Below, piece by piece: positions 22,808 to 56,430 of a DNA stretch of 64,000 nucleotides. The stretch is taken from assembly GCF_001421165.1 (NCBI RefSeq), contig NZ_LMKB01000006.1:385256-449255 (forward strand). Reading direction: 5' to 3'. How positions within the stretch are numbered: the stretch's first letter is position 1; every line of letters starts with the position of its first letter. The notes under the pieces are model-generated. The model searched no databases and was not told where the DNA came from. It was given only the letters and a program-made list of their open reading frames with translations. The position numbers were made by a program, and so were the translations under genes. This DNA comes from Frigoribacterium sp. Leaf8 (GTDB lineage Bacteria > Actinomycetota > Actinomycetes > Actinomycetales > Microbacteriaceae).

Positions 22808-22882
22808 GCTGGCAAGTCCGGAGAATACCGCCCACCGACCTCGACACGGCCTCGAACCGTGTCGGATTGCTGAGTTGCCGAC
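22808..22882. repeat. 75-bp palindromic element, copy 1 (degenerate left end)
   Basis: The right end TGAGTTGCCGAC matches the family terminus; the left end (CTGGCAAGTCCGGAGAA) is diverged. Length from terminus to terminus is 75 bp, like all other copies. Confidence 0.75.
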
Positions 22883-22983
22883 CGGCAGGTGGACCCTGGT
22901 GCCGGTCGAGCACGGCACGGGTCGCACCGAGACGCCGACTCGTCACGGACCACCGAGCACCACGCGACCCCGAGCACAGTCCG

Positions 22984-23058
22984 GTGGGCAACTCAGGAGA
23001 ACGGCGACCAGGTGCGGCCCTGACTCCCCGCAGCCTGCCGATCGCCGGAGTTGCCGAC
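22984..23058. repeat. 75-bp palindromic element, copy 2
   Basis: Left end GTGGGCAACTCAGGAGAACG and right end GCCGGAGTTGCCGAC form the terminal inverted repeat. The core is unrelated to copy 1 apart from length. Confidence 0.85.
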
Positions 23059-23078
23059 ACGACGCGCGGTGGCGGACA

Positions 23079-23254
23079 CGCAGGAGGCGCGACGCCAGAA
23101 CGCAGGACGCGCAGCGCCAGACACGCAAGACGCGCGGCGCCAGACCGCGGGAGGCGCAGCGCCAGACACGCAGGAGGCGCGGCGCCGGACACGCCGGAGG
23201 CGCGGCGCCAGAACGCAGGAGCCGCGGCGCCAGACACGCGGGAGGCGCGGGTCA
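23079..23254. repeat. 22-23 bp tandem array of CGCAGGAGGCGCGGCGCCAGACA
   Basis: About eight imperfect units run directly from the second 75-bp element toward the 3' end of phoH. Each unit contains the GGAGGCGCG motif. All units are in the same orientation. Confidence 0.85.
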
Positions 23255-23270
23255 GGTGACCCGCGCCTCC
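23241..23270. repeat. perfect motif palindrome at the phoH 3' end
   Basis: GGAGGCGCGGGTCA and its exact complement flank a 2-nt centre, so two opposed copies of the 13-bp motif form a 14-bp stem 10 bp downstream of the phoH stop. It may act as the phoH terminator. Confidence 0.8.
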
Positions 23271-23280
23271 TGCGTCCCTG

Positions 23281-24645
23281 CTACACCAGGTCGTTCGACT
23301 CGAGCATCTCGGTGACGAGGGCGGCGATCGCGGACCTCTCGGAGCGGGTCAGCGTCACGTGACCGAACAGCGGGTGACCCTTGAGCGTCTCGATGACCGA
23401 GGCGACCCCGTCGTGCCGGCCGACGCGCAGGTTGTCGCGCTGCGCCACGTCGTGGGTCAGCACCACCCGCGAGTTCTGGCCGATGCGGCTCAGGACGGTC
23501 AGCAGGACGTTGCGCTCGAGGGACTGCGCCTCGTCGACGATCACGAAGGCGTCGTGCAACGACCGGCCCCGGATGTGCGTCAGGGGCAGGACCTCGAGGA
23601 TGCCCCGCTCGACCACCTCGTCGAGGACGTTCTGGGACACGATCGCGCCCAGCGTGTCGAAGACGGCCTGCGCCCACGGGTTCATCTTCTCGCCGGCGTC
23701 GCCCGGGAGGAACCCCAGGTCTTGGCCGCCCACCGCGTAGAGCGGGCGGAACACCATGATCTTCTTGTGCTGCTGCTTCTCGAGGACGGCCTCGAGGCCG
23801 GCGCAGAGCGCGAGGGCCGATTTGCCCGTGCCGGCGCTGCCCCCCAGCGACACGATGCCCACCTCGGGGTCGAGCAGCAGGTCGATCGCGAGGCGCTGCT
23901 CGGCCGATCGACCGTGCAGCCCGAAGACGTCGCGATCGCCGCGGACGAGACGAGCCTCGCCGCGGGCGACCACGCGCCCCAGTGCCGAGCCCCGCTCCGA
24001 GTGCACGACCACCCCGGTGTTCACGGGGACGTCCGCGAGCGCACGGGCGGAGATCTTCTCGGACTCGTAGAACGAGGCCATCTGCTCGCTCGAGACGTCG
24101 ATCGAGGTCTGCCCGGTGTACCCGCTGTCGACGACCTGTTCGGCCCGGTATTCTTCGGCGGCCAGTCCGATCGACGCGGCCTTCACCCGCAGGGGCAGGT
24201 CTTTCGAGACGACCGTGACGGCCAGCCCGTCGGCGGCGAGGTTCGACGCGACGGCGAGGATGCGCGAGTCGGCGTCGTTCAGTTGCAGGCCCGAGGGCAG
24301 GACCGACATGTTCGAGTGGTTCAGCTCGACCCGCAGGGAGCCCCCGTCACCCACGGCCACCGGGAAGTCGAGACGGTCGTGCTTCACGCGGAGGTCGTCG
24401 AGGAGGCGCAGGGCCTGGCGCGCGAAGTAGCCCAGCTCGGGGTCGTGACGTTTGCCCTCGAGTTCGCTGACGACGACGACGGGAAGCACCACGTCGTGCT
24501 CGGCGAAGCGGAAGAGCGCCTGTGGATCGGACAGCAACACCGAGGTGTCGAGCACGTACGTGCGTTGGGCGACCGACTGGTCACCCCCCGTCGTTGCTGC
24601 GGTGTTGCGTTCGGTTGAGGTGATGTTCGACGCGGTCACGACCAC
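23281..24645 (-). CDS. phoH2: PIN-PhoH fusion protein (PhoH2 type)
   Basis: The 454-residue protein joins an N-terminal PIN ribonuclease domain ([11 protein letters not shown] near residue 30, [21 protein letters not shown]) to a C-terminal PhoH ATPase with Walker [11 protein letters not shown] and Walker [11 protein letters not shown]. In mycobacteria the same architecture (PhoH2) is an RNA helicase/RNase that works with a short upstream PhoAT antitoxin-like peptide. Here GTG 24645 precedes a ~20-residue Thr/Asn-rich lead; a purine-rich GAGGACGGA site is upstream. Cytoplasmic, likely acting in RNA turnover under stress. Confidence 0.92.
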
Positions 24646-24882
24646 TCCGTCCTCGGGCGGCTGGGCACCCGGGTACCTTCGGCAGAGACGGCCGCGGAGC
24701 AGTTGCGAGGCGAACTTTCGTGGCCGTCTCGATCGGGCTCCTTGCCCGATGTGTCGAACCTACGACGCGCCTCCGACATCCGCATCATCGACACCACCGT
24801 GTCGTGTGACGATCAGGTGAACGACCCTCATGTAACGGTCGAGGGTGCGGCGCGCGAGCCCCACCCCGCAGGGCGGTCCCGC

Positions 24883-26010
24883 CTAGTAGAAGACGGTCGT
24901 GCCGAACGAGGTGAACGCACCCCGCAGCATCTCGAACGAATCGTCGCCCGTGGACACGTGCACGCTCAGCCGCACGGTCGTGTCCCGCACGGTGGCCGTG
25001 ACCCCGTGGTTGATCAGTGCGGCCGTCAGCGTCGTCATCTGGTCGAGGGCGGGTTCGAGCACGACGATGCCGGCGCGCTCCGCCTCGTCGCGCGGCGAGA
25101 CCACCGGCACCGCGAACTCGTCGGCGAGGTCGATCACCCGCGTGGCCCGCTCGGCCACGGCCCGCGAGACGGCGGCGACGCCCACGTCGGCGAGGTCCTC
25201 GAGGGCCGTGGCGAGGCGCGCCTGGGCGATGGGGTCGGGATTCGTCAACTGGAACGCCGCAGCACCCGGGCGGGTCGGCTGCCGTCCGTGGTACGAGCCG
25301 CCGAGGGTCAGGTCGCTCCCGGCGACACCGCTGAACACCGGTGTCAGGGCCGAGAGCGCCCGGTCGCTCAGGGCAAGGAAGCCCGTCCCCCACCCGGCGC
25401 GGACCCACTTCTGACCGCCCGACGCCACGACGTCGGCCACGGCGTAGGGCGCGTCGACCACACCGAACCCCTGGATCGCGTCGACGATCAGCAACCGGTC
25501 GCCGATCACCTGGCGGATGCCCTCGAGGTCCACCAGGTACCCCGTGCGGTAGTCCACCAGGCTGACGGCCACGGCGGTGACCGAGTCGGTGAGGTGACGC
25601 TGCACCACGGCCGGCGTGACCACGTCGTGGTCGAGGTCCATCCAGACCGGCTCGAGCACGCGCAGGGCCTCGGAGGAGCGGGTCGCCGCGACGGGCATGC
25701 TCGGGTAGTCGCGCGGCGACATGAGCACCTGCCCGGTGAGACCGAACAGCGTGTGCGTGAGCCCTTCGCTCGTGTTCGGCTGGAAGACGACGTGGTCGGG
25801 TGCGAAGCCGACGAGGGACGAGATCGCCCGTCCGACGCGACCCGCCTGCTCGGTCAGGGCGATCTCGGACCCGAAACGGGCCCTCGCCTGCACCTCGACC
25901 AACGAGCGCTGCTCGTCGGCGACGGAGCTCGAGATGGGACCCCACTTCGCGAAGTCGAAGTATCCGGGCTCGTCGGTGAACCCCGAGGCGAGGTCGTCGA
26001 TGGTCTTCAC
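24883..26010 (-). CDS. class V aminotransferase-fold PLP enzyme
   Basis: The 375-residue protein has the fold-type I small-molecule aminotransferase layout. The PLP lysine is in SGGQKWVRAGWGTG (about residues 210-223), the cofactor aspartate in IVDAIQGFG. Cysteine desulfurases, isopenicillin-N epimerases and kynureninases share this family; the conserved Cys loop of desulfurases is not seen. Substrate unknown. ATG 26010 has GGAGAACACC upstream. It is not in an operon with recognisable partners. Confidence 0.8.
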   Translation of the reverse strand: MKTIDDLASGFTDEPGYFDFAKWGPISSSVADEQRSLVEVQARARFGSEIALTEQAGRVGRAISSLVGFAPDHVVFQPNTSEGLTHTLFGLTGQVLMSPRDYPSMPVAATRSSEALRVLEPVWMDLDHDVVTPAVVQRHLTDSVTAVAVSLVDYRTGYLVDLEGIRQVIGDRLLIVDAIQGFGVVDAPYAVADVVASGGQKWVRAGWGTGFLALSDRALSALTPVFSGVAGSDLTLGGSYHGRQPTRPGAAAFQLTNPDPIAQARLATALEDLADVGVAAVSRAVAERATRVIDLADEFAVPVVSPRDEAERAGIVVLEPALDQMTTLTAALINHGVTATVRDTTVRLSVHVSTGDDSFEMLRGAFTSFGTTVFY

Positions 26011-26124
26011 GGTGTTCTCCTAGGCGGCGGTGACTGGTCCACCGTAGTGCCGTCCGCGGTCCGCCGACCCGCGCCTCCTCGTCCGGTCGTCCGCGCGGGG
26101 CCGTGCGCGGGGGGCCAGCACGCG

Positions 26125-26199
26125 GCCGGCAAATCAGGAGAACGACGCACCAGAACCCCAGCAGGAGGCGCGGCGCAGCCGGATTCCGGAGTCGCCCAC
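26125..26199. repeat. 75-bp palindromic element, copy 3
   Basis: Ends GCCGGCAAATCAGGAGAACG and ATTCCGGAGTCGCCCAC are slightly diverged. The core includes AGGAGGCGCGGCGCAGCCGG and is almost identical to copy 4, pointing to local duplication. Confidence 0.88.
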
Positions 26200-26223
26200 A
26201 CCAGCCCGGCCACCGCGCGCACA

Positions 26224-26298
26224 GCCGGCAACTCAGGAGAACGACGCACCAGAACCCCTTGAGGAGGCGCGGCGCAGCCGGATTCCGGAGTTGCCGAC
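26224..26298. repeat. 75-bp palindromic element, copy 4
   Basis: Left GCCGGCAACTCAGGAGAACG, right TTCCGGAGTTGCCGAC. It lies 99 bp after copy 3 in the same orientation, with matching core. Confidence 0.9.
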
Positions 26299-26334
26299 AC
26301 CAGCCCGGTCACCGCGTCGGCGGCCGCTCGGGCG

Positions 26335-27123
26335 TCAGCTGCCGTAGCGCCGGTGCCGAAGGGCGAAGTCGCGCACGGCCCGGAGGAAGTCGACCTCGCG
26401 CAGGTCGGGGTAGAAGGCCTCGACGAAGTAGAACTCGCTGTGGGCGCTCTGCCACAGCATGAAGTCGCTCAAGCGTTGCTCGCCCGACGTGCGGATCACG
26501 AGGTCGGGGTCGGGTTGGCCGCCGGTGTAGAGGTGGTCGGCGATGAGCTCGGGGGTGAGCACCTCGGCCAGGGCGTCGAGAGTGCCCCCCGCGGCGTCGT
26601 GCGCCCGCACGATGCTGCGCATGGCGTCGGCGATCTCACGGCGCCCGCCGTAGCCGACGGCGAGGTTCACGTGCAGCCCCGTCTTGTCGGCGGTCCGGGC
26701 CTGGGCCTCGCGCAGGGCCGAGCAGAGCGCCGGCGGCAGGTCGTCGGTCGCGCCGACGTGCTGCACGCGCCAGTCCCGCTGACGCGAGAGCTCGTCCGCG
26801 ACGTCGCCGATGATGCCGAAGAGCTCGGTCAACTCGTCGGACTGTCGGTTGCCGAGGTTGTCGGCGGAGAGGAGGTACAGCGTGACCACCTTGATGCCGA
26901 GGTCGTCGCACCAGGTGAGGAACTCGCTGATCTTCGCGGCACCCGCGCGGTGCCCGTGGGCGGCGGTCTCGAGCATGCGCTGCTTGGCCCAGCGCCGGTT
27001 GCCGTCGACGATCATGGCGACGTGGTGCGGCAGCTCTTGACCGTCGAGGCTCCGGCGGATGCGGTTCTGGTAGAGGCCGTACAGGACTCCCCTGGCGAGG
27101 GGAGAGGGACGGCGCTTTTTCAC
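26335..27123 (-). CDS. uppS: cis-prenyltransferase (isoprenyl transferase, UppS family)
   Basis: The enzyme condenses IPP onto a prenyl diphosphate to make cell-wall carrier lipid or a shorter Z-prenyl diphosphate. The 262-residue product has MIVDGNRRWAKQR (catalytic Asp), NLAVGYGGRREI and DLVIRTSGEQRLSDFML, the diagnostic UPP synthase motifs. GTG 27123 follows a TACCGT -10 (27130-27135) by 6 nt; upstream in-frame codons are not conserved. Neighbouring PAQR and mca genes mirror the mycobacterial Z-farnesyl diphosphate synthase locus (Rv1086), so a short-chain product is possible. Confidence 0.93.
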   Translation of the reverse strand: MKKRRPSPLARGVLYGLYQNRIRRSLDGQELPHHVAMIVDGNRRWAKQRMLETAAHGHRAGAAKISEFLTWCDDLGIKVVTLYLLSADNLGNRQSDELTELFGIIGDVADELSRQRDWRVQHVGATDDLPPALCSALREAQARTADKTGLHVNLAVGYGGRREIADAMRSIVRAHDAAGGTLDALAEVLTPELIADHLYTGGQPDPDLVIRTSGEQRLSDFMLWQSAHSEFYFVEAFYPDLREVDFLRAVRDFALRHRRYGS

Positions 27124-27208
27124 AGGGCTACGGTAGCCCACGGCGGGCCGTCCACAGAGCCGAGGATTCTCAGCCCGCCTCCTCGGACGCTCCCCTAGGC
27201 TCGGCCCC

Positions 27209-27985
27209 ATGAGCAGCCACACCGACGGAGATCGCGCGAGCCTCCGGGCAGACGAGGTCGACGGGGCCGACGGAGCCGACCGGGCAGACGGGGACGACAT
27301 CCCGAACCTGCCGTTGCTCGACGACGCCCTCGCCTACCCCGGCATCGAGCGCAAACCGAGTTGGCGCGGCTGGATCCATGCGGCCACCTTCCCGGTCGCG
27401 ATCGCGACCGGCGTGGTGCTCGTCGTCCTCGCGCAGGGCGTGGCGGCGACCTGGGCCTGCGCGGTCTTCATGACGACGTCGCTCCTGCTCTTCGGCATCT
27501 CGGCGACCTACCACCGCTTCCCGTGGAGCCCGAACGCGAAACGCTTCCTGAAGCGGCTCGACCACGCCAACATCTTCCTGCTGATCGCCGGCACCTACAC
27601 GCCGATCGCGGTCATCGCCCTGCCGCCGTCGAAGGGCGTCACGCTGCTCGTGCTCGTCTGGACGGGCGCCGTGTTGGGCATCCTCTTCCGGGTGTTCTTC
27701 CTGAACGCGCCGCGGTGGTTGTACGTGCCGCTCTACGTCCTGCTGGGCGTCGGCGCCCTGGGGTTCATCGTCGACCTGCTCGACGCGAACGTCGCGATGA
27801 TGGTGCTCGTGCTGGTCGGCGGCGCGCTCTACATCGCGGGTGCCGTGTTCTACGGCATCAAGAGGCCGAACCCCGTACCGGGGCACTTCGGATTCCACGA
27901 GCTGTTCCACACCATGACGGTGCTGGCGTACCTCTGCCACTGGACGGGCATCCTGCTCGTGGCCCTGGACCCGCCGACCTTCTAG
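27209..27985 (+). CDS. PAQR/hemolysin III family membrane protein
   Basis: The 258-residue protein has an acidic 50-residue N-terminus with an ADGADRADG-type run and seven hydrophobic helices. Conserved metal-site residues of the hemolysin III/TrhA group are seen in SATYHRF, LDHANIFLLIAGTYTP and the C-terminal FHELFHTMTVLAYLCHW. The family is linked to membrane energetics and fluidity rather than proven haemolysis. ATG 27209 follows a TAGGCT -10 (27196-27201) by 7 nt. It diverges from uppS, as in mycobacteria. Confidence 0.9.
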   Translation: MSSHTDGDRASLRADEVDGADGADRADGDDIPNLPLLDDALAYPGIERKPSWRGWIHAATFPVAIATGVVLVVLAQGVAATWACAVFMTTSLLLFGISATYHRFPWSPNAKRFLKRLDHANIFLLIAGTYTPIAVIALPPSKGVTLLVLVWTGAVLGILFRVFFLNAPRWLYVPLYVLLGVGALGFIVDLLDANVAMMVLVLVGGALYIAGAVFYGIKRPNPVPGHFGFHELFHTMTVLAYLCHWTGILLVALDPPTF

Positions 27986-28043
27986 CGCGAGGTCGTCCGA
28001 GCCGAGGAGGCGCGGGTCGCCACCCCGGCACCGGTCGCGTCGG

Positions 28044-28418
28044 TCACGAGTCGCGCTCGCGCCTCCTGCGGTCGCCGTCGTCGTCGAGGTCGCCCTCGAC
28101 GGGGCGAGCCCGCCGATCGGCGTCTCCGGGGAGTTCTTCGTCGTCGAGAGCCGCGGCCGCCAGGGTCGCCTCGTCGCGCTCGGCCTGGATGCGCTCGCGC
28201 ACCTCGCCTCGGTACCGGGTGCGTCGGACCCGACGGGTCATGTCGACGACGATCAGCACCGTCGCGACGGCGACGAACGCGATGGCGACGAAACCCCAGA
28301 CGCCGGGCGTGACGGCCTCGTCGGGGATGGTCGACGGCGGCAGCGTCGGGTCGGGGGTCTGCGGCTGCGCCAGCAGACGGGTCGTGACCGCGACCACCGA
28401 TTCGGAGAGCACGCTCAT
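28044..28418 (-). CDS. small single-pass membrane protein coupled to mca
   Basis: The 124-residue protein has a hydrophobic segment at about residues 40-62 (VWGFVAIAFVAVATVLIVV) followed by a basic and then acidic cytoplasmic tail (RRVRRTRYRGEVRERIQAERDEA). ATG 28418 overlaps the mca stop (ATGA). A small membrane protein occupies the same position after mca in mycobacteria (Rv1083), so this is probably its counterpart. Function is unknown; association with mycothiol metabolism is inferred from context only. Confidence 0.8.
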   Translation of the reverse strand: MSVLSESVVAVTTRLLAQPQTPDPTLPPSTIPDEAVTPGVWGFVAIAFVAVATVLIVVDMTRRVRRTRYRGEVRERIQAERDEATLAAAALDDEELPGDADRRARPVEGDLDDDGDRRRRERDS

Positions 28419-29305
28419 CGCTGCACCCCCACGAGGCCGGTGTCGGGGTCGACGACCCCGGCGAAGAGGTCGACCTCGGGCAGGTCGGACCCGACGTTCG
28501 ACTCGACGAGCTGGAAGTCCTCGGTGGGCCAGGCGGCGACCTGGAGGTCGTGGGGCCAGAAGAAGAACGCGCTGTCGAGCGGCACCTGGCTGGCGTGCGA
28601 CCGAAGGGCGGCGTCGCGCACGGGGAAGAAGTCGGAGACCGGCACGCGGGTCGTGGCCAGGTCGGGCCGGTCGCTGAAACGGGCCAGCATCTCGGTCAAC
28701 GACTCGATGAGGGGCGACTCGGGGTCGCTCTCGCGCAGGTGCGTGATCATCGCGCCGATGCGTCCGGCACTGAACATGCGGTCGTAGTAGACCTTGTCGA
28801 TCTGCCACGCGTCGCCGGTCGCCGGGTAGCGCTCGGGGTCGGAGGCGTCGCGGTAGGCCGCCATCGAGATCTCGTGCGTGCGGATGTGGTCGGGGTGGGG
28901 GTACCCGCCGTTCTCGTCGTAAGTCACCAGCACCTGCGGCTTGAACCGACGGATGATCGCGACGAGCGGCTCGGCGCTGATCTCGAGCGGGATGGTGGAG
29001 AACGAGTTGACCGCGACCGACTCGCCCTCGGCCGGCAGGCCCGAATCGGCGTAGCCCAGCCACAGGTGGTCGATGCCCATCGCCGCCTGGGCGGCCGCCA
29101 TCTCGTGCACGCGCAGGCCCGCGATGTCACGCTCGGCGTGAGCTCGGGCCTCGAGCTGCTCGTTGAGGATCGACCCCTGCTCGCCGCCGGTGCAGCTGAC
29201 GACGAGGACGTCGACGCCGAGGCTGCGGTAGTAGGCGTAGGTCGCCGAGCCTTTGCTGGACTCGTCGTCGGGGTGGGCGTGGACCGCCAGCAGGCGCAGG
29301 GTCAA
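28415..29305 (-). CDS. mca: mycothiol S-conjugate amidase
   Basis: Mca cleaves mycothiol S-conjugates into glucosaminyl-inositol and an exportable mercapturic acid. The 296-residue LmbE/PIG-L-fold protein has the zinc motif HAHPDDESSKG at residues 8-18 and YDENGGYPHPDH; the SSKG form distinguishes Mca from the deacetylase MshB (ESLN-type). The start is TTG 29305 with a strong GAGGAAG site. Gene order uppS-PAQR-small membrane protein-mca-DUF4307-greA is conserved with mycobacteria. Confidence 0.92.
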   Translation of the reverse strand: MTLRLLAVHAHPDDESSKGSATYAYYRSLGVDVLVVSCTGGEQGSILNEQLEARAHAERDIAGLRVHEMAAAQAAMGIDHLWLGYADSGLPAEGESVAVNSFSTIPLEISAEPLVAIIRRFKPQVLVTYDENGGYPHPDHIRTHEISMAAYRDASDPERYPATGDAWQIDKVYYDRMFSAGRIGAMITHLRESDPESPLIESLTEMLARFSDRPDLATTRVPVSDFFPVRDAALRSHASQVPLDSAFFFWPHDLQVAAWPTEDFQLVESNVGSDLPEVDLFAGVVDPDTGLVGVQR

Positions 29306-29374
29306 TTCTTCCTCGCAATGTGTGCCGGGCAGACGTTGCTACCCTGGGGACAGCTTAATCGGACGGAGATCCGC

Positions 29375-29797
29375 GTGACGTCCACGCCCCGTGTCACCTC
29401 GCCCTCGTCGCGCCTCGACGCACGGTACGGGCGTTCGCCGCGGGGTCGGCGCAGGCGCCTCGTCGTGGGCCTGTCCGTCGCCGTCGCCTTCGTCGTCGTC
29501 TTCGCGGCGTGGGTCGTCTTCGCCGCCTTCGACGGGACCTCGTCCCAGCTCGAATCCGCCGACGTGGGCTACCAGGTCACCTCCGACCGAGCCGTCGAGG
29601 TCCAGTACACGGTCACCGCGGACACGGGCGAGGCGGTCGACTGTGCGGTCGAAGCCCAGAACAGCGGCTTCGCGGTCGTCGGCTGGAAGATCGTGCACCT
29701 GCCCGCCTCCGAGCGGCGTTCGGTGACCTACACGACCTCGCTCGCGACGTCGGAACGGGCGGTCACGGGCTTGATCTACCGGTGCTGGCTTCCCTAG
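29375..29797 (+). CDS. DUF4307 membrane protein
   Basis: The 140-residue protein has a basic N-terminus, one transmembrane helix (about residues 29-50: LVVGLSVAVAFVVVFAAWVVF) and a small extracytoplasmic beta domain with Cys pair (VDCAVEAQ, IYRCWLP), typical of DUF4307. GTG 29375 follows GGACGGAG; TACCCT near 29339 may be the -10. It is divergent from mca and upstream of greA, the order seen around Rv1081c. Function unknown. Confidence 0.87.
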   Translation: MTSTPRVTSPSSRLDARYGRSPRGRRRRLVVGLSVAVAFVVVFAAWVVFAAFDGTSSQLESADVGYQVTSDRAVEVQYTVTADTGEAVDCAVEAQNSGFAVVGWKIVHLPASERRSVTYTTSLATSERAVTGLIYRCWLP

Positions 29798-29817
29798 ACT
29801 GCTCGGAATCGCACGAC

Positions 29818-29848
29818 GAGACCGGCCACTCGGCCGGTCTCCTTTTTT
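29818..29848 (+). terminator. intrinsic terminator after DUF4307
   Basis: A 10-bp GC stem (GAGACCGGCC / GGCCGGTCTC, loop ACTC) is followed by six T residues (29843-29848), the most canonical Rho-independent terminator in the window. It separates the DUF4307 transcript from greA. Confidence 0.9.
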
Positions 29849-29939
29849 CGGTGGGCGACCTCGCCCCGGCTCCCGGCACCGCGCCTCCTCGGCTCGAGTC
29901 GCCCGACCGGGTTCGGCCGCCGCACGAAACGGAGACACC

Positions 29940-30431
29940 ATGAGCACTGACAACGAGACCACCTGGCTCACGACGGACGCCCGCGACCGTCTGCAGGCCG
30001 AGCTCGACACCCTCAGCGGCGAGGGACGTCGCGAGATCGCGTCACGCATCGAAGCCGCCCGCGAAGAGGGCGACTTGAAGGAGAACGGCGGCTACCACGC
30101 CGCCAAGGACGAGCAGGGCAAGATGGAGGCGCGCATCCGTACGCTGATCAACCTGCTGAAGCACGCGACGGTCGGTGACTCGACGGCCGCCGACGGCATC
30201 GTCGGCCCCGGCACCGTCGTCACGGCGACCATCGCCGGCGACGAGAGCACCTTCCTGCTCGGCAACCGCGAGATCATCGCCGCCGGCAGCGACCTCTCGG
30301 TCTACAGCGAGACCAGCCCGCTCGGCCAGGCCATCAACGGGCTGAAGGTCGGCACGACGACCAGCTACACCGCCCCGAACGGCAAGGACATCTCGGTGTC
30401 GATCACGAACGTCGAGACCTACCAGCCGTAG
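29940..30431 (+). CDS. greA: transcription elongation factor GreA
   Basis: GreA rescues backtracked RNA polymerase by stimulating transcript cleavage. The 163-residue product has the N-terminal coiled-coil with the acidic tip (EEGDLKENGGYHAAKDEQ, about residues 41-58) and a C-terminal FKBP-like domain (STFLLGNREI). The tip acidic residues Asp and Glu are present. ATG 29940 follows CGGAGACACC. The gene is monocistronic between two terminators. Confidence 0.96.
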   Translation: MSTDNETTWLTTDARDRLQAELDTLSGEGRREIASRIEAAREEGDLKENGGYHAAKDEQGKMEARIRTLINLLKHATVGDSTAADGIVGPGTVVTATIAGDESTFLLGNREIIAAGSDLSVYSETSPLGQAINGLKVGTTTSYTAPNGKDISVSITNVETYQP

Positions 30432-30441
30432 GTCCGACGCC

Positions 30442-30474
30442 GAAGGCCCCCGCTCGAACGGAGCGGGGGCCTTC
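30442..30474 (+). terminator. hairpin terminator after greA
   Basis: A 14-bp perfect stem (GAAGGCCCCCGCTC, 5-nt loop) begins 10 bp after the greA stop. Confidence 0.88.
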
Positions 30475-30513
30475 GTCGTCCCGGCCGCGGGGGCCCGGAC
30501 CCTCGACGGGGGT

Positions 30514-30588
30514 GTCGGCAACTCCGGAATGCGGCGTCGTCCGCGGCAGTCCTGCGCCCGCGGGCGGCCGTTCTCCTGAGTTGCCGAC
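30514..30588. repeat. 75-bp palindromic element, copy 5 (reverse orientation)
   Basis: Termini GTCGGCAACTCCGGAATGC and CGTTCTCCTGAGTTGCCGAC; the CTCAGGAGAACG side is on the right, so it is inverted relative to copies 2-4. Confidence 0.9.
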
Positions 30589-30600
30589 GGGGACGCGGTG

Positions 30601-30735
30601 CCGTCAGGAGGCGCGGGCGCGGTCGGGACGCGCAGACCCGGTCAGGAGGCGCGGGCCACCGTCAGGAGGCGCGGACACGGTCAGGACGCGCAGACCTGGT
30701 CAGGAGGCACGGCCACGGTCAGGAGGCGCGGGGCA
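30601..30735. repeat. tandem array of GGTCAGGAGGCGCGGnCAC
   Basis: Seven imperfect 18-20 bp units alternate between AGGAGGCGCGG and AGGACGCGCAG variants, directly after the fifth 75-bp element and ending near the ilvA stop. Confidence 0.8.
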
Positions 30736-30752
30736 CGTCTCGCGGAGTCGGC

Positions 30753-35448: not shown

Positions 35449-35473
35449 GGTGTCGAGGACGACTCGGACTGGA

Positions 35474-36272: not shown

Positions 36273-38495
36273 GTGACAGTGTTCGAGCCGCCGACCCTGC
36301 GTCCCCCGCGTCCGTCGACCCCCGTCGACGGACGGCTCGTGGTCGAGCCGCGACACGGACGACGTGTCGCCTCGACCCTCGCGACGGTCGTGCTGGGTCT
36401 CTCGCTCGCCCTGTCGGGCGGAGTCGGCGCGCTCGCCGCGGGCAGCCCGTCGGGCACCCCCGCACCCGGCCCGTCGCTCGGCCAGTCCCCTCCCGGTCCG
36501 GTCGCACCCACGATCGGCGACGTCGGAGACCGGGACGTGAACGCCGTCGTGGTCGGCGGGACCGGCACGCCCGGAGCCACCGTGAGGGTGCTCGACCCCC
36601 GCGTCCCCAGTCGAGCCCTCTGCGAGGTCACCCTGCCCACCGGTGACCCGGCCGGCGTCCCCTGGTCGTGCCCGGTGACGCTGGAGGACGGTGCCGACCA
36701 GACCCTCACGGTCCGAGACGTGACGAATGCCGCCGTGGTCGACGACGCCGTCAGCGCTCCGTTCTCGGTGCTCGGCCCGCCCACGGTCCAGGGCGGACCC
36801 GCCGTCGGTGGCAAGGTCGCGGGCACCGCGTTCCCCGGTGCCCGCATCACCGTCGGCGGGGGCGCGGCACCGGTCTCGGCGACGGCCGACGACGCCGGGG
36901 CCTGGTCGGCCGTGCTCCCGTCGGCGACCTGGCCGACCGGCCGGTACACGGTCACGGCGTCCCAGTCCTCGGACTCCGTTCCCGCCGTGCCCCGGTCCTC
37001 GACCTCCACCGGCGTCACCGTCACGATCGACCGCGACCCACCCGCCCCGCCGGCCGTGCTCTCGCCCCGGGCCGGCGAACGGGTCGCCTCGCAACCGCTC
37101 ACCTTCTCGGGGACGGGAGAAGACGGCGCGACCGTCACCGCCTACGTCGACAGCACACCCGTCTGCCAGGCCACGGTCTCCGGCGGCGCATGGGCCTGCA
37201 CGTCGTCCGATGCCGCCCTCGCCGATGGCGAGCACGTGGTCCAGGCCGCCCAGATCGACCCGTCGGTGAACGTCGGGCCGCCCAGCGCGGGCATCTCGAT
37301 CACGGTGACGTCGTCGGCCGCGCAGCCCGCGCCTCCTTCGTCCTCGGCCGCTCCGGCACCGACGGCGGCGCCCGGCGCGTCCGGGGGCGCCGTCCCCTCC
37401 GAGCCGTCTCCCGGGACGCCCGGAGCCCCGGGGACCGGTGACGGGCCGGGAGGCGCTCCCGGTGGCGACGGCGAGGTACCACCCGAAGCCTCCACACCGA
37501 CGGCGGACTCCTGGGCGGCCGCGACGACGTTCGGTCGCGACCTGCCGTCCCTCGGCCGGACGATGACCGGGACGGGATGGTTGATCGCTCTCGGCCTCGC
37601 AGCCGCGTTCGTGCTGCTCGTCGTCGCCCCGGCACGTCTGCTGGCCACGGCGATGCGAGGTCGCCTCGCGCCGCGCGCCCCGCGGCTCACCGGCCGGAAC
37701 CGTCGTCGGGAACTCCCGACCTCGTTCTCGACCGCCACACTCGACCCGCGCCTCGCCGCCGGGTTGACCATCGCGGCCGGAGCCGCCGTGGTCGGGCTGG
37801 CGGCCGGCCTCGACGACGAGGTCCGCTACGCACGCCTGTTCGCCGGGATCGTCGTCGGAGTCGCCCTGGTCAACGTGCTCGCGGTCGTCGTCCCCACCCT
37901 GGTGATGGGGCGTTCCCCGGACCGCGAGGCGCGCATCCACATGTCACCGCGCCTCCTCCTCGTCGCCGTCGTCGCCTGCGCGGTGACGCGGTCGCTCGGC
38001 CTGGACCCGCCCCTCGTGCTCGGGGTGGTGCTCGTCGGAAGCCTCGCCGCAGCGCCCCGGTCGGCGCACCACGGCCGGACCGGTGAGGTGGGCGATCGCG
38101 AGGCAGGACTGCTCGCGCTCGTCCAGGTCGCCGCTCTGGTGGTCGTGGCGGCCGGAGCCTGGGCCGTCCACGGCGCCCTCCCCGCCACCGGTGGGTTCTT
38201 CACCGAGTTGGCCCTCGAGACGAGCGCGACGGTCTGCCTGACCGGGCTCGGATCGCTCGTGCTCGCGCTCGTGCCGGTGGGCTCCCTGCCTGGTCGACGC
38301 CTCTGGGCCTGGTCGCGCCCGCTCCACGTGGCTCTCACGGTCGTCGGCGTCACGGCGGCCGCCGCCGTGCTCACGGGCGGCTCGTCGTCCTTCCCGATCG
38401 GAGGCGCGGTCGTGGCCGCCGCCGTGACCGCGGGCCTCTGCGTCGCGGCCTGGCTCTGGACGTCGTTCGTCGAGATCGACACCGACGACGCCTGA
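36273..38495 (+). CDS. Ig-like domain surface protein with multi-helix membrane C-terminus
   Basis: The ~740-residue protein has a signal peptide (about residues 30-56, ending in ALAA), two or three bacterial Ig-like repeats (around 75-345, with TVRVLDP, GARITVGG and GATVTAYVDS strands), a Ser/Pro/Gly-rich linker (345-420), and a C-terminal half with about eight hydrophobic helices (430-735). The mixture of an adhesin-like exterior and a polytopic membrane domain is unusual; I do not recognise the membrane part. GTG 36273 is the first possible start, but GTG 36279 fits the promoter better. No operon partner. Confidence 0.75.
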   Translation: MTVFEPPTLRPPRPSTPVDGRLVVEPRHGRRVASTLATVVLGLSLALSGGVGALAAGSPSGTPAPGPSLGQSPPGPVAPTIGDVGDRDVNAVVVGGTGTPGATVRVLDPRVPSRALCEVTLPTGDPAGVPWSCPVTLEDGADQTLTVRDVTNAAVVDDAVSAPFSVLGPPTVQGGPAVGGKVAGTAFPGARITVGGGAAPVSATADDAGAWSAVLPSATWPTGRYTVTASQSSDSVPAVPRSSTSTGVTVTIDRDPPAPPAVLSPRAGERVASQPLTFSGTGEDGATVTAYVDSTPVCQATVSGGAWACTSSDAALADGEHVVQAAQIDPSVNVGPPSAGISITVTSSAAQPAPPSSSAAPAPTAAPGASGGAVPSEPSPGTPGAPGTGDGPGGAPGGDGEVPPEASTPTADSWAAATTFGRDLPSLGRTMTGTGWLIALGLAAAFVLLVVAPARLLATAMRGRLAPRAPRLTGRNRRRELPTSFSTATLDPRLAAGLTIAAGAAVVGLAAGLDDEVRYARLFAGIVVGVALVNVLAVVVPTLVMGRSPDREARIHMSPRLLLVAVVACAVTRSLGLDPPLVLGVVLVGSLAAAPRSAHHGRTGEVGDREAGLLALVQVAALVVVAAGAWAVHGALPATGGFFTELALETSATVCLTGLGSLVLALVPVGSLPGRRLWAWSRPLHVALTVVGVTAAAAVLTGGSSSFPIGGAVVAAAVTAGLCVAAWLWTSFVEIDTDDA

Positions 38496-38667: not shown

Positions 38668-38742
38668 GTCGGCAACTCAGGAAATCAACGCACGAACGGA
38701 CGGAAACGGCCTGCCGATCCTCTGATCTCCTGAGTTGTCGAC
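38668..38742. repeat. 75-bp palindromic element, copy 6
   Basis: Termini GTCGGCAACTCAGGAAATCA and GATCTCCTGAGTTGTCGAC. Both ends have the CTCAGGA form, so the terminal repeat is nearly symmetrical. Confidence 0.9.
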
Positions 38743-39085: not shown

Positions 39086-39160
39086 GTCGGCAACTCAGGA
39101 GAACGACGCCGGAACGCGCGCGACGTGCCCCGGAGCACGCCGATCTCCTGAGTTGCCGAC
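39086..39160. repeat. 75-bp palindromic element, copy 7 (most symmetrical)
   Basis: The first 17 bp, GTCGGCAACTCAGGAGA, and the last 17 bp are exact inverted repeats. The core shares nothing obvious with copies 3-4. Confidence 0.92.
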
Positions 39161-43711: not shown

Positions 43712-45094
<1,383 letters not shown>

Positions 45095-47365: not shown

Positions 47366-47437
47366 GAGGACACCACTCGGACCCCACCGGGTCGCTGCCC
47401 CTCGGGCCGACCCTCTGGTGGACGAGCGCCGGCCTAG

Positions 47438-47458
47438 CCGCTCATTCGGGTTGAGCGG
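47438..47458. repeat. hairpin with TTCGGGT loop, copy 1
   Basis: CCGCTCA-TTCGGGT-TGAGCGG, 7-bp stem, 20 bp before a larger hairpin with the identical loop. Confidence 0.7.
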
Positions 47459-47467
47459 GCGAGGCCG

Positions 47468-47500
47468 AGGTGCCCCCTCATTCGGGTTGAGGGGGCACCT
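47468..47500. terminator. hairpin with TTCGGGT loop at the mazG stop
   Basis: A perfect 13-bp stem AGGTGCCCCCTCA around loop TTCGGGT. The mazG stop codon (47478-47480) lies in its distal arm. With the smaller hairpin it probably ends mazG transcription and blocks reading from the orphan promoter into mazG. Confidence 0.7.
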
Positions 47501-48398: not shown

Positions 48399-48400
48399 GG

Positions 48401-52012
<3,612 letters not shown>

Positions 52013-52165
52013 CCGCACGATGTTACGCGGCACCACCGACACCGCGGTCGGGGTTCGCTGTCGGCGACACCGGGAGGCGCCCGGAGGTCGGTCACCGGCG
52101 GGACGGACCCGCTCGTCGCGGTCCGCGACTCGACCACGTCCGTGGTCGGCCGGGCTCCGGACGCG

Positions 52166-52756
52166 TCAGCTCTTCGCGGTGTGGAACTTCAGCTGCGCCG
52201 CGGTCAGTCCGTCGGTGGCGATCATCTCGACCGCGTCGGCCGCGTCGGCGACCAGGAACCGAAGTTCTTTGCGTTCGGTGGAGGAGAAGTCCTTGAGGAC
52301 GAAGTCGGCGGCTGGCTGCCTGCCGGGCGGACGGCCGATGCCGACACGAACCCGGGTGAACTCGTTCGACCCCGTGGCGGCGATGATGTCGCGGATGCCG
52401 TTGTGGCCGCCGTGGCCGCCACCGTGCTTCAGCCGGACGACGTCGAAGTCGATGTCGAGCTCGTCGTGGACGACGATGAGCCGCGACACGTCGAGGTCGT
52501 AGTACTTCAACAGCGCCTGCGTCGGCCCGCCCGAGACGTTCATGAAGGTCGCGGGCCTGGCCAGCACGAAGCGAGGGCCGCCGGGAGCGGTGCGCCCCTC
52601 GGCGACCGTCGCGTTCGTGCGGTGGTTCTTGAACCCGGTGGAGAGTCGGTCGGCCAGTTCGGCCAGGACCATCTGCCCCACGTTGTGCCTGTTGCCGGCG
52701 TAGCCGGGCCCGGGGTTGCCGAGCCCGACCACGAGCCACTGGTCGTCGAGTGCCAT
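52166..52756 (-). CDS. pth: peptidyl-tRNA hydrolase
   Basis: Releases peptides from prematurely dissociated peptidyl-tRNA. The 196-residue product has VVGLGNPGPGYAGNRHNVG with catalytic His, ARPATFMNVSGG and VVHDELDIDFD (catalytic Asp), and LKHGGGHGGHNG. ATG 52756 follows rplY by 60 bp; the pair is widely conserved. A 153-bp spacer separates it from mfd. Confidence 0.96.
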   Translation of the reverse strand: MALDDQWLVVGLGNPGPGYAGNRHNVGQMVLAELADRLSTGFKNHRTNATVAEGRTAPGGPRFVLARPATFMNVSGGPTQALLKYYDLDVSRLIVVHDELDIDFDVVRLKHGGGHGGHNGIRDIIAATGSNEFTRVRVGIGRPPGRQPAADFVLKDFSSTERKELRFLVADAADAVEMIATDGLTAAQLKFHTAKS

Positions 52757-52816
52757 CGTCGTGGTCGTCGTTCTCTCAGTGGGTCTGCGCCGGCAGGGTG
52801 TTCGAGCTGCGTCGTG

Positions 52817-53452
52817 TTACTCGGAGCGCTCTTCGTCCTCGATGGACTCGACGTCGCCCTCGGCCTCGGCGGCCTCGCCGTCCTCGTCGGAGACCGCGTC
52901 GGTCGTCAGGTCGAGCTGGGGCACCGAGACGGCGAGCACGAGGGTCTCGGGCTCGCTGACCAGGGTCGCGCCCTTGGGCAGCACGAGGTCGGCCGCCGAG
53001 ATCTGGGCGCCCTCTTCGAGGCCCTCGATCGAGACGACGACGTTCTGCGGGATGTGCGTGGCCTCGACCTCGAGCTCGACGGCGTTGAGCTCGACGACGT
53101 GGATCGTGCCGGGAGCCGACTCACCCTCGACGTGCACGGGCACCTCGACGGTGACCTTCTCGCCCTGGCGGACGACGATGAGGTCGATGTGCTCGATGGT
53201 CTGCTTGACCGGGTCGCGCTGGATGTCCTTGACGAGGGCGAGCTGGTTCGTGCCCTCGATGTCGAGCGTGATGACGGCGTTGGCACGACGCGTGATCAGC
53301 ATGGTCTCGTGACCGGGCAGCGTGACGTGCTGGGGGTCGGTGCCGTGGCCGTAGATGACCGCGGGGATCTGGTCCTTGGCACGGATCTTGCGGGCCGCGC
53401 CCTTGCCGAAGCTGGTGCGCACGAGGGCGCTGAGGTTGTTCTGGTCGGACAT
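52817..53452 (-). CDS. rplY: 50S ribosomal protein bL25 (Ctc form)
   Basis: The 5S rRNA-binding protein is the long Ctc/TL5 form of 211 residues: N-terminal L25 domain (SFGKGAARKIRAKDQIPAVIYGH, about 11-33), a C-terminal TL5 beta domain (LPKGATLVSEPETLVLAVS), and an acidic Glu/Asp tail. ATG 53452 follows CAAGGAGACGAC. The leader upstream to a TAACCT box near 53660 may be ~190 nt long. Confidence 0.96.
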   Translation of the reverse strand: MSDQNNLSALVRTSFGKGAARKIRAKDQIPAVIYGHGTDPQHVTLPGHETMLITRRANAVITLDIEGTNQLALVKDIQRDPVKQTIEHIDLIVVRQGEKVTVEVPVHVEGESAPGTIHVVELNAVELEVEATHIPQNVVVSIEGLEEGAQISAADLVLPKGATLVSEPETLVLAVSVPQLDLTTDAVSDEDGEAAEAEGDVESIEDEERSE

Positions 53453-53748
53453 GTCGTCTCCTTGCAGGGGCCGTGACGGCCCGGGGGTGTGTGGTCGGTG
53501 TCAACTCGAACGCGAATCGCGTGAGGAAGGACCCGCAACCCGAGGGGTGCCGCCCGAGGGACGATCACCGCTGCACGAGTGGTGCGTGAGCACCGAGCGC
53601 CTGCCTACCGCGTCGATCACGGGTGCCGGAGCACCCCTCGCCGAGGTTCAGCTACCAAGGTTACACGTCGGCCGGGCGTGTCGCCAACCCGCGCCTCCTC
53701 GGCTCGTCCGTCCGCGAGGGCGCCCCCTCAGCGCCCGAGTCGGGCTCG
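53453..53748. other. rplY leader and gntK 3' spacer
   Basis: A small hairpin (GGGTGC/GCACCC near 53621-53636) and one motif copy with a single mismatch (53689) are present. The AT-rich ACCAAGGTTACAC (53655-53667) is the probable rplY promoter on the minus strand. No gene. Confidence 0.4.
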
Positions 53749-54291
53749 TCAGTGCCCGAGTTCGCCTCGTCGCACGGCCCCGAGGTGGGCCGTCACGGCC
53801 GCCACGACGTCGTCGGGACCGGGCTCCACGTCGACCTCGAAACCGGCCTCGTCGTCGGTCAGCGGCTCGAGGGTGGCGAACTGCGACTCCATCAGGCCGG
53901 CCGGCATGAAGTGCCCCTTGCGCTCGCGCTGACGTCGGGCGACGAGGTCGCGCACGCCGGTCAGGTGCACGAACCGGAGGCGCGGGTCGCCCTCCCGCAG
54001 GACGTCGCGGTACGCCTTCTTCAGCGACGAGCAGGCGACGACCACCGAGTCGTCGCCCGCCGCGGCGATGCGGTCGGCGACGAGGCGGAGCCACGGCCAC
54101 CGGTCGTCGTCGTCGAGCGGCTGCCCGGCGGCCATCTTGAGCCGGTTGGCCTCGGGGTGCAGGTCGTCGGCGTCGACGAACGGGACGCCGAGGGTCTCGG
54201 CCAACAGCTCGCCCACGGTCGACTTGCCCGATCCGGAGACCCCCATCACGACGACGGGCGGGAAGGGAGCGGGGTGGGGCTGGTCGGTCAC
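53749..54291 (-). CDS. gntK: gluconokinase
   Basis: Phosphorylates gluconate to 6-phosphogluconate, the substrate of the divergent gnd product. The 180-residue P-loop kinase has VMGVSGSGKSTVG (about 14-26), DADDLHPEANRLKMAAGQPL and ACSSLKKAYRDVLR, all characteristic of GntK. GTG 54291; TAGGGT (plus 54325-54330) is a likely -10 overlapped by an inverted repeat. Confidence 0.94.
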   Translation of the reverse strand: MTDQPHPAPFPPVVVMGVSGSGKSTVGELLAETLGVPFVDADDLHPEANRLKMAAGQPLDDDDRWPWLRLVADRIAAAGDDSVVVACSSLKKAYRDVLREGDPRLRFVHLTGVRDLVARRQRERKGHFMPAGLMESQFATLEPLTDDEAGFEVDVEPGPDDVVAAVTAHLGAVRRGELGH

Positions 54292-54314
54292 GGACGGCCT
54301 TCGATCGGGGAAAC

Positions 54315-54330
54315 GGTTGCGTCAACCCTA
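54315..54330. promoter_or_regulatory. inverted repeat at the gntK promoter
   Basis: GGTTG-CGT-CAACC (54315-54327) overlaps the minus-strand -10 TAGGGT (54325-54330). A repressor site responding to gluconate is a reasonable guess; the regulator is not in the window. Confidence 0.4.
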
Positions 54331-54423
54331 GGCGAGCCGCCGTGGAGGGGTACGGACGGAGCCTGTCGGACGCTCGGCACCGAGGCATAGTCTGCGAACA
54401 CCACCGACCGAGAAGGAGGCACC

Positions 54424-55896
54424 GTGACCGAACACGGAGCAGCATCGCAGTCCACCGCCCACGCGAACATCGGAGTCGTCGGCCTGGCCGTCATGGGCTC
54501 GAACCTGGCGCGCAACCTGGCCAGTCGCGAGGGCAACACGGTCGCCGTCTACAACCGCTCCCCCGAGCGCACCGACACCCTCATGGACGAGCACGGTGAC
54601 GCCGGGTTCATCGCCTCGAAGTCGATCGAGGACTTCGCCGCATCCCTGCAGAAGCCGCGCACCGCGATCGTCATGGTGCAGGCCGGTCGCGGCACCGACG
54701 CCGTCATCAGCCAGCTCGCCGACGTGTTCGACGAGGGCGACATCATCGTCGACGGCGGCAACGCGAACTTCCAGGACACCCGCCGACGAGAGGCCGCCCT
54801 CAAGGAGCGCGGACTGAACTTCGTGGGCGCCGGCATCTCGGGCGGCGAGGAAGGCGCCCTGAAGGGGCCGTCGATCATGCCCGGCGGCTCGAAGGAGGCC
54901 TACGAGACGCTCGGCCCGATCCTGGCGTCGATCGCGGCGGTGGCCGAGGGCGAGCCCTGCGTCACGCACGTCGGGGCCGACGGCGCGGGCCACTTCGTCA
55001 AGATGATCCACAACGGCATCGAATACGCCGACATGCAGCTCATCGCCGAGTCGTACGACCTGCTGCGCCGGGTGGGCGGCCACGAGCCCGCCGCCATCGC
55101 CTCGGTCTTCGAGGAGTGGAACAAGGGCGAGCTCGAGTCGTACCTGATCGAGATCACGGCCGAGGTGCTCCGCCAGACGGATGCCAAGACGGGCGGCCCG
55201 CTCGTCGACTCGATCGTCGACCAGGCCGGCTCCAAGGGCACGGGCGTCTGGACCGTGCAGAACAGCGTCGGGTTGGGCGTGCCGGTCGGTGGGATCGCCG
55301 AGGCCGTCTTCGCCCGCGCCGTGTCGTCGAAGCCCGCCCAGCGCTCGGCCGTGCAGAAGACCCTGCAGGGACGGCCCGAGATCCAGGAGGCCGGCGACGG
55401 CTTCGAGGACGACGTGCAGAAGGCGCTCTACGCCTCGAAGATCGTCGCCTACGCCCAGGGCTTCGACGCCATCATCGCCGGTGCCGACGAGTACGACTGG
55501 GACATCGACAAGGGCGCCATCGCCAAGATCTGGCGCGGCGGCTGCATCATCCGGGCACAGTTCCTCAACCGCATCGTCGACGCCTACGAGAAGGACGCGT
55601 CGATCGCGACCCTGCTCGAGGACGACTACTTCGCCGCGGCCGTCCGAGACGGCGAAGAGGCCTGGCGCCGCATCGTGGCCAAGGCCGCCCTCTCGGGCAT
55701 CCCCGTGCCCGGCTTCGCCTCGGCTCTGTCGTACTACGACTCGCTCGCGTCCGAACGCCTGCCCGCCTCCCTCATCCAGGGGCAGCGGGACTTCTTCGGG
55801 GCACACACCTATCAGCGCGTCGACGAGGAGGGCACGTTCCACACCCTCTGGTCGGGCGACAGGGCCGAGATCGAGACGGAGCCGTCGACCCACTGA
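54424..55896 (+). CDS. gnd: 6-phosphogluconate dehydrogenase, decarboxylating
   Basis: Oxidises 6-phosphogluconate to ribulose 5-phosphate, CO2 and NAD(P)H. The 490-residue long-form enzyme has GVVGLAVMGSNLARN (Rossmann, about 17-31), GAGISGGEEGALKGPSIMPGG in two parts, HNGIEYADMQL and the C-terminal helical domain. GTG 54424 follows AGAAGGAGGC; TAGTCT near 54390 is the likely -10. Divergent from gntK, making a gluconate-use unit that feeds prs with pentose phosphate. Confidence 0.97.
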   Translation: MTEHGAASQSTAHANIGVVGLAVMGSNLARNLASREGNTVAVYNRSPERTDTLMDEHGDAGFIASKSIEDFAASLQKPRTAIVMVQAGRGTDAVISQLADVFDEGDIIVDGGNANFQDTRRREAALKERGLNFVGAGISGGEEGALKGPSIMPGGSKEAYETLGPILASIAAVAEGEPCVTHVGADGAGHFVKMIHNGIEYADMQLIAESYDLLRRVGGHEPAAIASVFEEWNKGELESYLIEITAEVLRQTDAKTGGPLVDSIVDQAGSKGTGVWTVQNSVGLGVPVGGIAEAVFARAVSSKPAQRSAVQKTLQGRPEIQEAGDGFEDDVQKALYASKIVAYAQGFDAIIAGADEYDWDIDKGAIAKIWRGGCIIRAQFLNRIVDAYEKDASIATLLEDDYFAAAVRDGEEAWRRIVAKAALSGIPVPGFASALSYYDSLASERLPASLIQGQRDFFGAHTYQRVDEEGTFHTLWSGDRAEIETEPSTH

Positions 55897-56032
55897 CGGG
55901 TGCAGGGGCGCTCACCGCGCCTCCTGCGTCCTGACGGGCGTGCCCCTCGATGCGGTGCCGCTGCGGCGGCCGGCGTCGGGCACGCCCGTTCGTCGTTCCG
56001 CCGCAGCGGACCTCGGAGCTTCCGACGTCGAT

Positions 56033-56107
56033 GTAGACAACTCAGGAGAACGGCCGCCGAATCGGCCCTTTGGAGGCGCGGCGCAGCCGAACTCCGGAGT
56101 TGCCGAC
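56033..56107. repeat. 75-bp palindromic element, copy 8
   Basis: Termini GTAGACAACTCAGGAGAACG and CTCCGGAGTTGCCGAC; core contains TGGAGGCGCGGCGCAGCCG like copies 3, 4, 9 and 10. Confidence 0.88.
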
Positions 56108-56219
56108 TTCGCACGGGCAGGTCGCGGGCCAGGCGGGCCGCTCGGGCCGGGCCGTGGCCTGCCGGTCGCGTGACCCAGGCGGCACGGGCCGGGCGGGCGG
56201 GCGGGTCGAGCAAATCCAT

Positions 56220-56294
56220 GTCGGCAAGTCAGGAGAACGACCGCCGAAACGGCGGGCAGGAGGCGCAGCACAGCCGAACTCCGGAGTTGCCGAC
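56220..56294. repeat. 75-bp palindromic element, copy 9
   Basis: Termini GTCGGCAAGTCAGGAGAACG and CTCCGGAGTTGCCGAC; core nearly the same as copy 10 (CGCCGAAACGGC). Confidence 0.92.
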
Positions 56295-56355
56295 ATCGGA
56301 CGAGCAAGCCGGGCCGGTCGGGGCCGAGCGGCCCGGTGGGGGCGAGCAGGTCCAC

Positions 56356-56430
56356 GTCGGCAAGTCAGGAGAACGACCGCCGAAACGGCCCGCAGGAGGC
56401 GCGGCGCAGCCGGACTCCGGAGTTGCCGAC
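56356..56430. repeat. 75-bp palindromic element, copy 10
   Basis: Termini identical to copy 9; 136 bp downstream and in the same orientation. Flanking ACATCGGACGAGCAAGCCGG is also repeated, so a larger unit was duplicated. Confidence 0.92.

Follow-up and report, generated by a model that had tools for sequence, protein, structure and literature searches.

Short palindromic elements of stepped length around the gene of an AbiEi-like, nuclease-like protein look like a mobile-DNA or DNA-looping system in several actinobacterial genera

Why should ten short palindromes keep one length while the sequence between their ends varies? The question is raised by a window of 64,000 nucleotides from Frigoribacterium sp. 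Leaf8 (contig NZ_LMKB01000006.1, positions 385,256 to 449,255), which is the whole stretch analysed here. An initial annotation made from the letters of this window had described ten elements of 75 bp with inverted ends, and had offered a hairpin RNA, a two-site protein complex with set spacing or the target of a REP-type rolling-circle transposase as the constraint on their length. All ten were recovered where that annotation had placed them, each 75 bp long, with common inverted ends and in intergenic gaps at five sites. Here we describe how such elements bracket or cluster around the gene of an unstudied, apparently DNA-binding, nuclease-like protein (positions 21560-22624 in the window) in several actinobacterial genera, and why together they look like a mobile-DNA or DNA-looping system.

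Read inward from both sides, most element ends are GTCGGCAACTC[A/C]GGAGA. A 19-base pattern of the ends, with three mismatches allowed, was matched 28 times in the 3.33-Mb genome to which the window belongs (G000, contig C6) and once by the reversed control pattern, hence the ends are not a product of chance. Nineteen of the 28 matches are found on C6 between 408 and 479 kb. The genome contains at least 14 distinct copies, of which 11 lie within 72 kb on C6, two on C5 and one at 120 kb of C6; weaker copies may be missing from this count, and a covariance model (R1) has 33 matches, palindromes being matched on both strands. All 11 clustered copies (C6:406818-478838) are upstream of the nuclease-like gene, with none on the fumC side of the cluster. 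A role as origin or terminus mark was considered and dropped: the cluster lies some 0.75-0.8 Mb from dnaA in genome G005 and near half-way round in G150, so it has no fixed place relative to dnaA.

Length was then treated as a variable. When it was left free between 25 and 300 bp, the 88 end pairs found in 30 loci of eight Frigoribacterium genomes measured 74 (7), 75 (70) or 76 bp (11, one of which contains a run of N), and none measured 25-73 or 77-161 bp; from 162 bp on end pairs reappear, which are the ends of neighbouring copies pairing. The claim that length never varies therefore stood for the genus to within one base pair, and fell in that 74 and 76 bp occur and other genera have elements in other set sizes, about 11 bp apart. 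Anchored lengths, measured between the conserved AA of each end, are 63, 73-75, 83-87 and 94-96 near 30 homologues of the protein gene, with one of 43 at 58. In the named set of loci, which overlaps these homologues in organisms, the 95 elements within 700 bp of a homologue gene measure 63-64 (4), 73-75 (26), 83-86 (56), 94-97 (6), 108 (2) and 49 (1); beyond 700 bp, 86 of 91 fall in the same classes and the other five measure 31, 55, 99, 99 and 111. Anchored pairs numbered 189, against 7 in shuffles.

The best period of these lengths is 11.2-11.3 bp, with a mean resultant of 0.88 (n=95) or 0.86 when collapsed to 54 distinct end/length types. This is nearer 11 than 10.5 bp, as is usual for protein-held loops in living cells. 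The 32 pairs of upstream and downstream elements differ in length by 0-2 (18), 10-13 (10) or 22-23 bp (4). Within loci, 224 of 226 comparisons, which share ancestry and hence are not independent, differ by 0-3, 8-14 or 19-23 bp, and none by 4-7 or 15-18. Whole-turn gain or loss of element length recurs in many loci. Two further cases were seen in passing: a 98-bp element in G150 (L064:179-276), again about one turn longer than the other elements listed there (86 bp), and in G006 (L054:16499-16727) an extra half-site 32 bp, or about three turns, from another, which gives anchored pairs of 63 and 95 bp in one array.

Elements of this kind are found beside one gene and its homologues. A de novo inverted-repeat search, which uses no element motif, returned 117 repeats beside the homologue genes of the 73 named loci, against 7.8 in shuffles and 6.5 in control windows of the same loci. 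Thirty further homologue loci (L187-L216, three being own-genome homologues and five lying outside the bacterial family) gave 40 against 1.1, with at least one repeat in 20 of the 30 and in three of the five from outside the family; at L188, L190, L192, L196 and L201 the ends are quite different and match on both sides of the gene. An anchored element lies within 700 bp in 58 of the 73 named loci. Where there was enough flank (68 loci) it is found upstream in 44, downstream in 41 and on both sides in 30; where the downstream element runs into the reading frame, as it often does, the end of the frame reads GNSG or similar.

The ends also match the protein. Divergence of end sequence and of protein sequence are correlated (Mantel r 0.644, reached in 0 of 2,000 permutations) over 51 loci, those that have an anchored element nearby and are represented in the protein alignment A3, the element of L118 being a chance-like pair. 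A3 holds 65 of the 73 named loci. Excluded were L140 and L146, whose frames are long and fused, L141, removed by hand, L165, with its broken frame, and L166, L168, L169 and L170, which are partial or distant. The homologue of L165 (10001-10854, metagenome assembly G038) was matched in two frames, which indicates a broken gene or an assembly error. In a single genome, that of Leaf186, the ends of the window type (L101) differ from those of a paralogue (L136). Paralogous proteins go with ends of AACTCAGGAG type and of AACTCCTGCC type. Outside the genus, seven genomes have end matches (G038, G150, G163, G036, G305, G114 and G266), and in five of them the listed matches are on the contig of a homologue, within about 170 (G038), 14 (G150), 37 (G163), 0 (G036) and 15 kb (G305).

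The gene at 21560-22624, on the reverse strand, codes for a protein of 354 residues that combines, by Pfam, profile, fold and conservation, an AbiEi-like N-terminus with a Vsr/EDxHD-type nuclease-like C-terminus. The initial annotation had suggested looking for a dedicated transposase or DNA-binding protein, and this associated AbiEi-like product, which presumably binds the ends, is the candidate that emerged. Among 16 homologues compared with Pfam, 11 matched AbiEi_4, 13 the MTES_1575 REase domain (PF18741) and 6 DUF559, all weakly (E-values up to 0.5 were allowed), and a PADLOC AbiEi model matches 14 of the 16. The AlphaFold2 model is confident (mean predicted local distance difference test score 87). 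Its top Foldseek match is the AbiEi antitoxin of Streptococcus agalactiae (6y8q, E 2e-4), and the catalytic domain of the EDxHD homing endonuclease I-Bth0305I (3r3p) is matched with probability 1.00, E 0.063 and a template modelling score of 0.74 by target length. Because residues 201-283 match the profile of the Vsr-like structure 3hrl (E 0.039), the nuclease fold match would belong to the C-terminal part. S203, E206, Q223, D235, E245, H252 and D259 are invariant in 66 sequences, of which we take E206, D235, H252 and D259 to be the motif residues of the EDxHD family. The ratio of nonsynonymous to synonymous substitution rates (about 0.14-0.21 versus four orthologues) indicates purifying selection on the protein. 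In the bacterial family, 186 of the 299 genomes scanned, from 61 of 85 genera, have a homologue with an E-value of at most 1e-8; another query at 1e-10 found homologues in 13 of 197 genomes sampled from the class, four of them outside the family. Carriage by phage or plasmid was rejected, as a Salinibacterium homologue was without a match among phages and had just one among plasmids, weak and partial (28% identity over 76%), and the window protein has no plasmid match.

Where, then, do the ten elements of the window lie? Its genes were called crudely, from reading frame and third-position GC, and named from Pfam. The five gaps are bounded by genes with Pfam names or a tRNA; every gap has the 3' end of one gene or more at its edge, and three lie between convergent genes, which agrees with the initial annotation's account of five intergenic sites downstream of genes. 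The first gap, between the 3' end of phoH and the nuclease-like gene, holds 22808-22882 (reverse strand), about 180 bp upstream of the latter gene and with divergent ends (its left end reads GCTGGCAAGTCC), and 22984-23058 (forward). Two forward copies, 26125-26199 and 26224-26298, lie 3' of uppS. One reverse copy (30514-30588) lies between the convergent greA and ilvA-like genes. The gap between the gene of an immunoglobulin-like (Ig-like) protein and a tRNA holds 38668-38742 and 39086-39160 (both forward), the latter with both ends equal to the consensus without mismatch. Finally 56033-56107, 56220-56294 and 56356-56430, all forward, lie between the convergent gnd and prs; a frame called at 56336-57295 (forward) over the third of these was discounted, since prs occupies that stretch on the opposite strand.

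Some further features of these sites deserve mention. A core like GGAGGCGCGGCGCAGCC is present in the copies at uppS (26125-26298) and at gnd/prs (56033-56430) and unseen at the remaining three sites, which points to a shared origin of these copies. Inverted repeats with GCAGGAGGCGCG-like arms, at spacings of 73, 96 and 119 and without element ends, occupy 23151-23269, in the interval from the 22984 element to phoH. The Ig-like gene (36273-38495), which adjoins two elements, is 43-51% identical in eight of the nine other genomes of the genus compared, against about 80-93% for most neighbours, and was not found in the ninth stretch. Integron attC sites were dropped as candidates, since the elements occur in both orientations.

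The named relatives are Frigoribacterium, and 16 genomes of the genus (G000 to G015) were compared. All five sites are filled in seven of them (G000, G005, G008, G013, G010, G007 and G004), with identical gene order and one to four copies per site, varying between species. In six others (G001, G003, G009, G011, G012 and G015) the five gaps are all without a detected copy and the fumC-phoH gap contains no homologue; these six do have homologues elsewhere. In G002, where the contig ends, the uppS, greA/ilvA and tRNA gaps alone were open to inspection, and no copy was detected in them. A single absence, at one site of one genome, is tentative, since the motif-anchored scan used for it recovers six of the ten window elements; a second scan, by end pattern, covers four of the five gaps. 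The initial annotation had held that freely varying length, or the same sites fixed in all relatives, would speak against a fixed-length mobile or structural element. The outcome is mixed: length is not free, and the sites are occupied in seven genomes, with no copy detected in six.

G006 and G014 have a homologue of 58-59% identity in the fumC-phoH gap. Beside it and in the gnd/prs gap (two each there) they carry elements with the anchored length of 63 seen in the window type and with altered inner ends (CAGGCG, CAGGTG, CAGGTT) at both places; no copy was detected in their other three gaps. The altered ends thus changed together within a genome, which is what dependence on a trans-acting protein would lead one to expect. 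Additional copies are present at other places in G007, and at one of these (C10:779767) G010 is without the element, in a diverged and partly clean gap. G007 also has local arrays of five (L039:1395-2181) and four (L038:1220-1613) elements of 75 bp that resemble amplification. A GC-rich sequence at L040:1952-2011, with short matches at many places in the listed genomes of the genus, is probably a separate dispersed repeat.

Do the two arms of an element evolve as one hairpin or as two sites? In 87 unique elements of the genus, over 19 arm positions, identical departures in both arms numbered 24 against 35.9 expected under independence, and at positions 17-18 identical double changes were clearly fewer than expected. 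This lack of compensation weighs against the hairpin RNA of the initial annotation. Symmetric sequence, independent arms and stepped spacing are together what two DNA half-sites would give. Of the three constraints first offered, the two-site protein complex is the one that gained support, indirectly, from the helical-turn steps in length and the associated AbiEi-like protein gene. The REP-type rolling-circle transposase is not supported as proposed, Y1_Tnp (PF01797) having no match in any of the 16 genomes of the genus, with five of 14 control genomes positive, although the elements are REPIN-like in other respects.

We thus consider it somewhat probable that the elements are paired inverted recognition sites of the 21560-22624 protein, with phased half-sites, and form a short non-autonomous element that the protein copies or moves. 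The data show that elements accompany the gene and cluster around it, that end sequence goes with protein sequence, that lengths are stepped and arms uncompensated, and that presence varies between species; binding of the ends by this protein, activity of its nuclease-like domain and its part in copying or moving the elements are what we infer. Two copies of the protein would bind the two ends and meet across a small DNA loop; a pair bridging such a loop would keep the ends and the helical phase conserved and leave the core free to change. The nuclease-like domain would act on such DNA, and the elements would thereby be duplicated or moved, mostly near the protein's own gene. This would parallel the presumed action of RAYTs on REPINs, except that it would proceed on double-stranded DNA and by an unrelated enzyme.

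Several observations weigh against this proposal. With regard to the protein, the AbiEi match is the only one that passes E 0.001, and two mitoribosomal proteins (E 0.02-0.03) rank above the homing endonuclease. With regard to the association, the window's own type (L098-L102) is among the 15 of 73 loci without an anchored element within 700 bp, and in this type the downstream bracket element was not detected. Shared inheritance of protein and ends would also give some co-variation. Clustering was judged in five of the seven genomes outside the genus, the homologue place of G114 and G266 being absent among the matches listed, and several clustering genomes have three to five homologue matches, which makes nearness of element and gene somewhat easier to reach. 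R1 gives weaker matches in all 16 genomes of the genus, and the outer ends are common to paralogue-type elements. With regard to movement, 263 queried elements gave four candidate empty sites, with boundaries that are not clean; the three inspected fit insertion or loss. No clear target-site duplication was seen around the 87 unique elements, flanking repeats of 3 bp numbering 4 against 2.6 in shuffled pairs, those of 2 bp 7 against 6.9, and those of 4-10 bp none. The five sites are kept in all seven clade genomes, which is compatible with host function as well. In 48 of the 73 named loci a homologous class II tRNA-synthetase gene, which we take to be that of glycyl-tRNA synthetase, stands upstream of the gene, and in 38 a DsbA-like gene follows it; the common synthetase neighbour indicates that the gene is mostly inherited in place and in most of these loci does not hop. 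RAYTs are inherited vertically, and in this the gene is again RAYT-like.

The alternative that survives best is that the elements serve the host as operators: a regional regulator or nucleoid protein would loop DNA at phased pairs near gene 3' ends, the elements being immobile now and the nuclease-like domain serving something else. The phased two-site architecture, the presence of an upstream element at 44 of 68 loci, the retention of sites throughout the clade of seven and the purifying selection on the protein all fit it, as does the autoregulation of AbiEi proteins via inverted repeats, with DNA bending, described in PMC7319586. However, distant copies at 3' ends or downstream are needless for autoregulation, copy number per site differs between species from one to four, six species with the same gene order have no detected copy at the sites, and nuclease-type residues are invariant in all 66 sequences. 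On this evidence we regard operators as unlikely, if still worth keeping in mind.

An ordinary miniature inverted-repeat transposable element, or a REPIN of another transposase to which the neighbouring protein is a bystander, would account for short extragenic elements with inverted ends that are present or absent between relatives; it is improbable, as it leaves lengths stepped though cores are free, finds neither a clear target-site duplication nor a Y1 transposase in the 16 genomes, and does not explain why end-matched elements are enriched beside the same protein gene in many genera. Slightly more improbable still is a function at the RNA level, as hairpins of 3' untranslated regions, bidirectional terminators or stabilisers of mRNA, to which the strong predicted hairpins and the position of all five sites 3' of genes, three between convergent ones, would lend themselves, but which is opposed by the uncompensated arms, by length steps of a helical turn that are unexpected for RNA, by clustering around one gene and by Rfam, which at gathering cutoff matches only two tRNAs in the window.

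Among the nearest known systems, REPIN-RAYT is alike in working. As there, the elements are extragenic inverted doublets of set length, with conserved ends and a spacer that varies, and they adjoin a single chromosomal gene; a homologue of its product has no match in phages and a weak partial one in plasmids, and the window protein itself has none in plasmids. They differ in the lack of a Y1/HUH transposase match in the 16 genomes, in lengths stepped by the helical turn, in copies that crowd around the gene and in arms without compensation, whereas compensatory changes are called common for REPINs in PMC3116915. With AbiE type IV toxin-antitoxin systems the window protein shares the AbiEi N-terminal domain and fold. 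AbiEi and Rv2827c bind paired inverted repeats with gaps of 3 and 13 bp, a 10-bp step, according to PMC7319586. Unlike them, the present protein has an added nuclease-like domain and its sites are dispersed far from the gene; the AbiEii (DUF1814) toxin is absent among the window neighbours scanned (phoH, a weak prepilin-peptidase match and fumC), the other loci being outside the toxin scan. A possible likeness to EDxHD homing endonucleases (I-Bth0305I) consists of the catalytic-domain fold match and the invariant E, D, H and D; here, however, the gene is outside any intron, intein or conserved gene, and multi-copy short palindromes accompany it. The MTES_1575-type Vsr REase (PF18741) and DUF559 are alike in their weak matches to 13 and 6 of 16 members. 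The MTES_1575 domain takes its name from a large protein that has HEPN, transglutaminase and wHTH domains, for which the passages of PMC3710099 consulted do not mention palindromic elements.

The system belongs to none of the families tested, and its parts are known folds. Searches of the open-access literature, which covered it in part, returned no account of elements like these and none of palindromes linked with DUF559, AbiEi-fusion or Vsr-like proteins. The system is best read as REPIN/RAYT-like, with an unrelated protein that would recognise two phased half-sites. More tentatively, and as a possibility we would not yet call probable, it may be a second, independently built genomic symbiosis of REPIN type, in which an AbiEi-fold/EDxHD nuclease-like protein inherited in place maintains and spreads, by double-strand chemistry, palindromes of half-sites set integral helical turns apart, paralogues keeping separate end specificities in one genome.

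If this is true, the short dispersed palindromes of bacteria have at least one origin besides RAYT transposases, and a large uncharacterised protein family, with members in most of the genera scanned in this bacterial family, gains a role that can be tested. The stepped element length would then be an unusually direct readout, from sequence only, of an apparent protein-bridged DNA loop, and the paralogue-specific ends would provide natural sets of matched pairs of protein and site.

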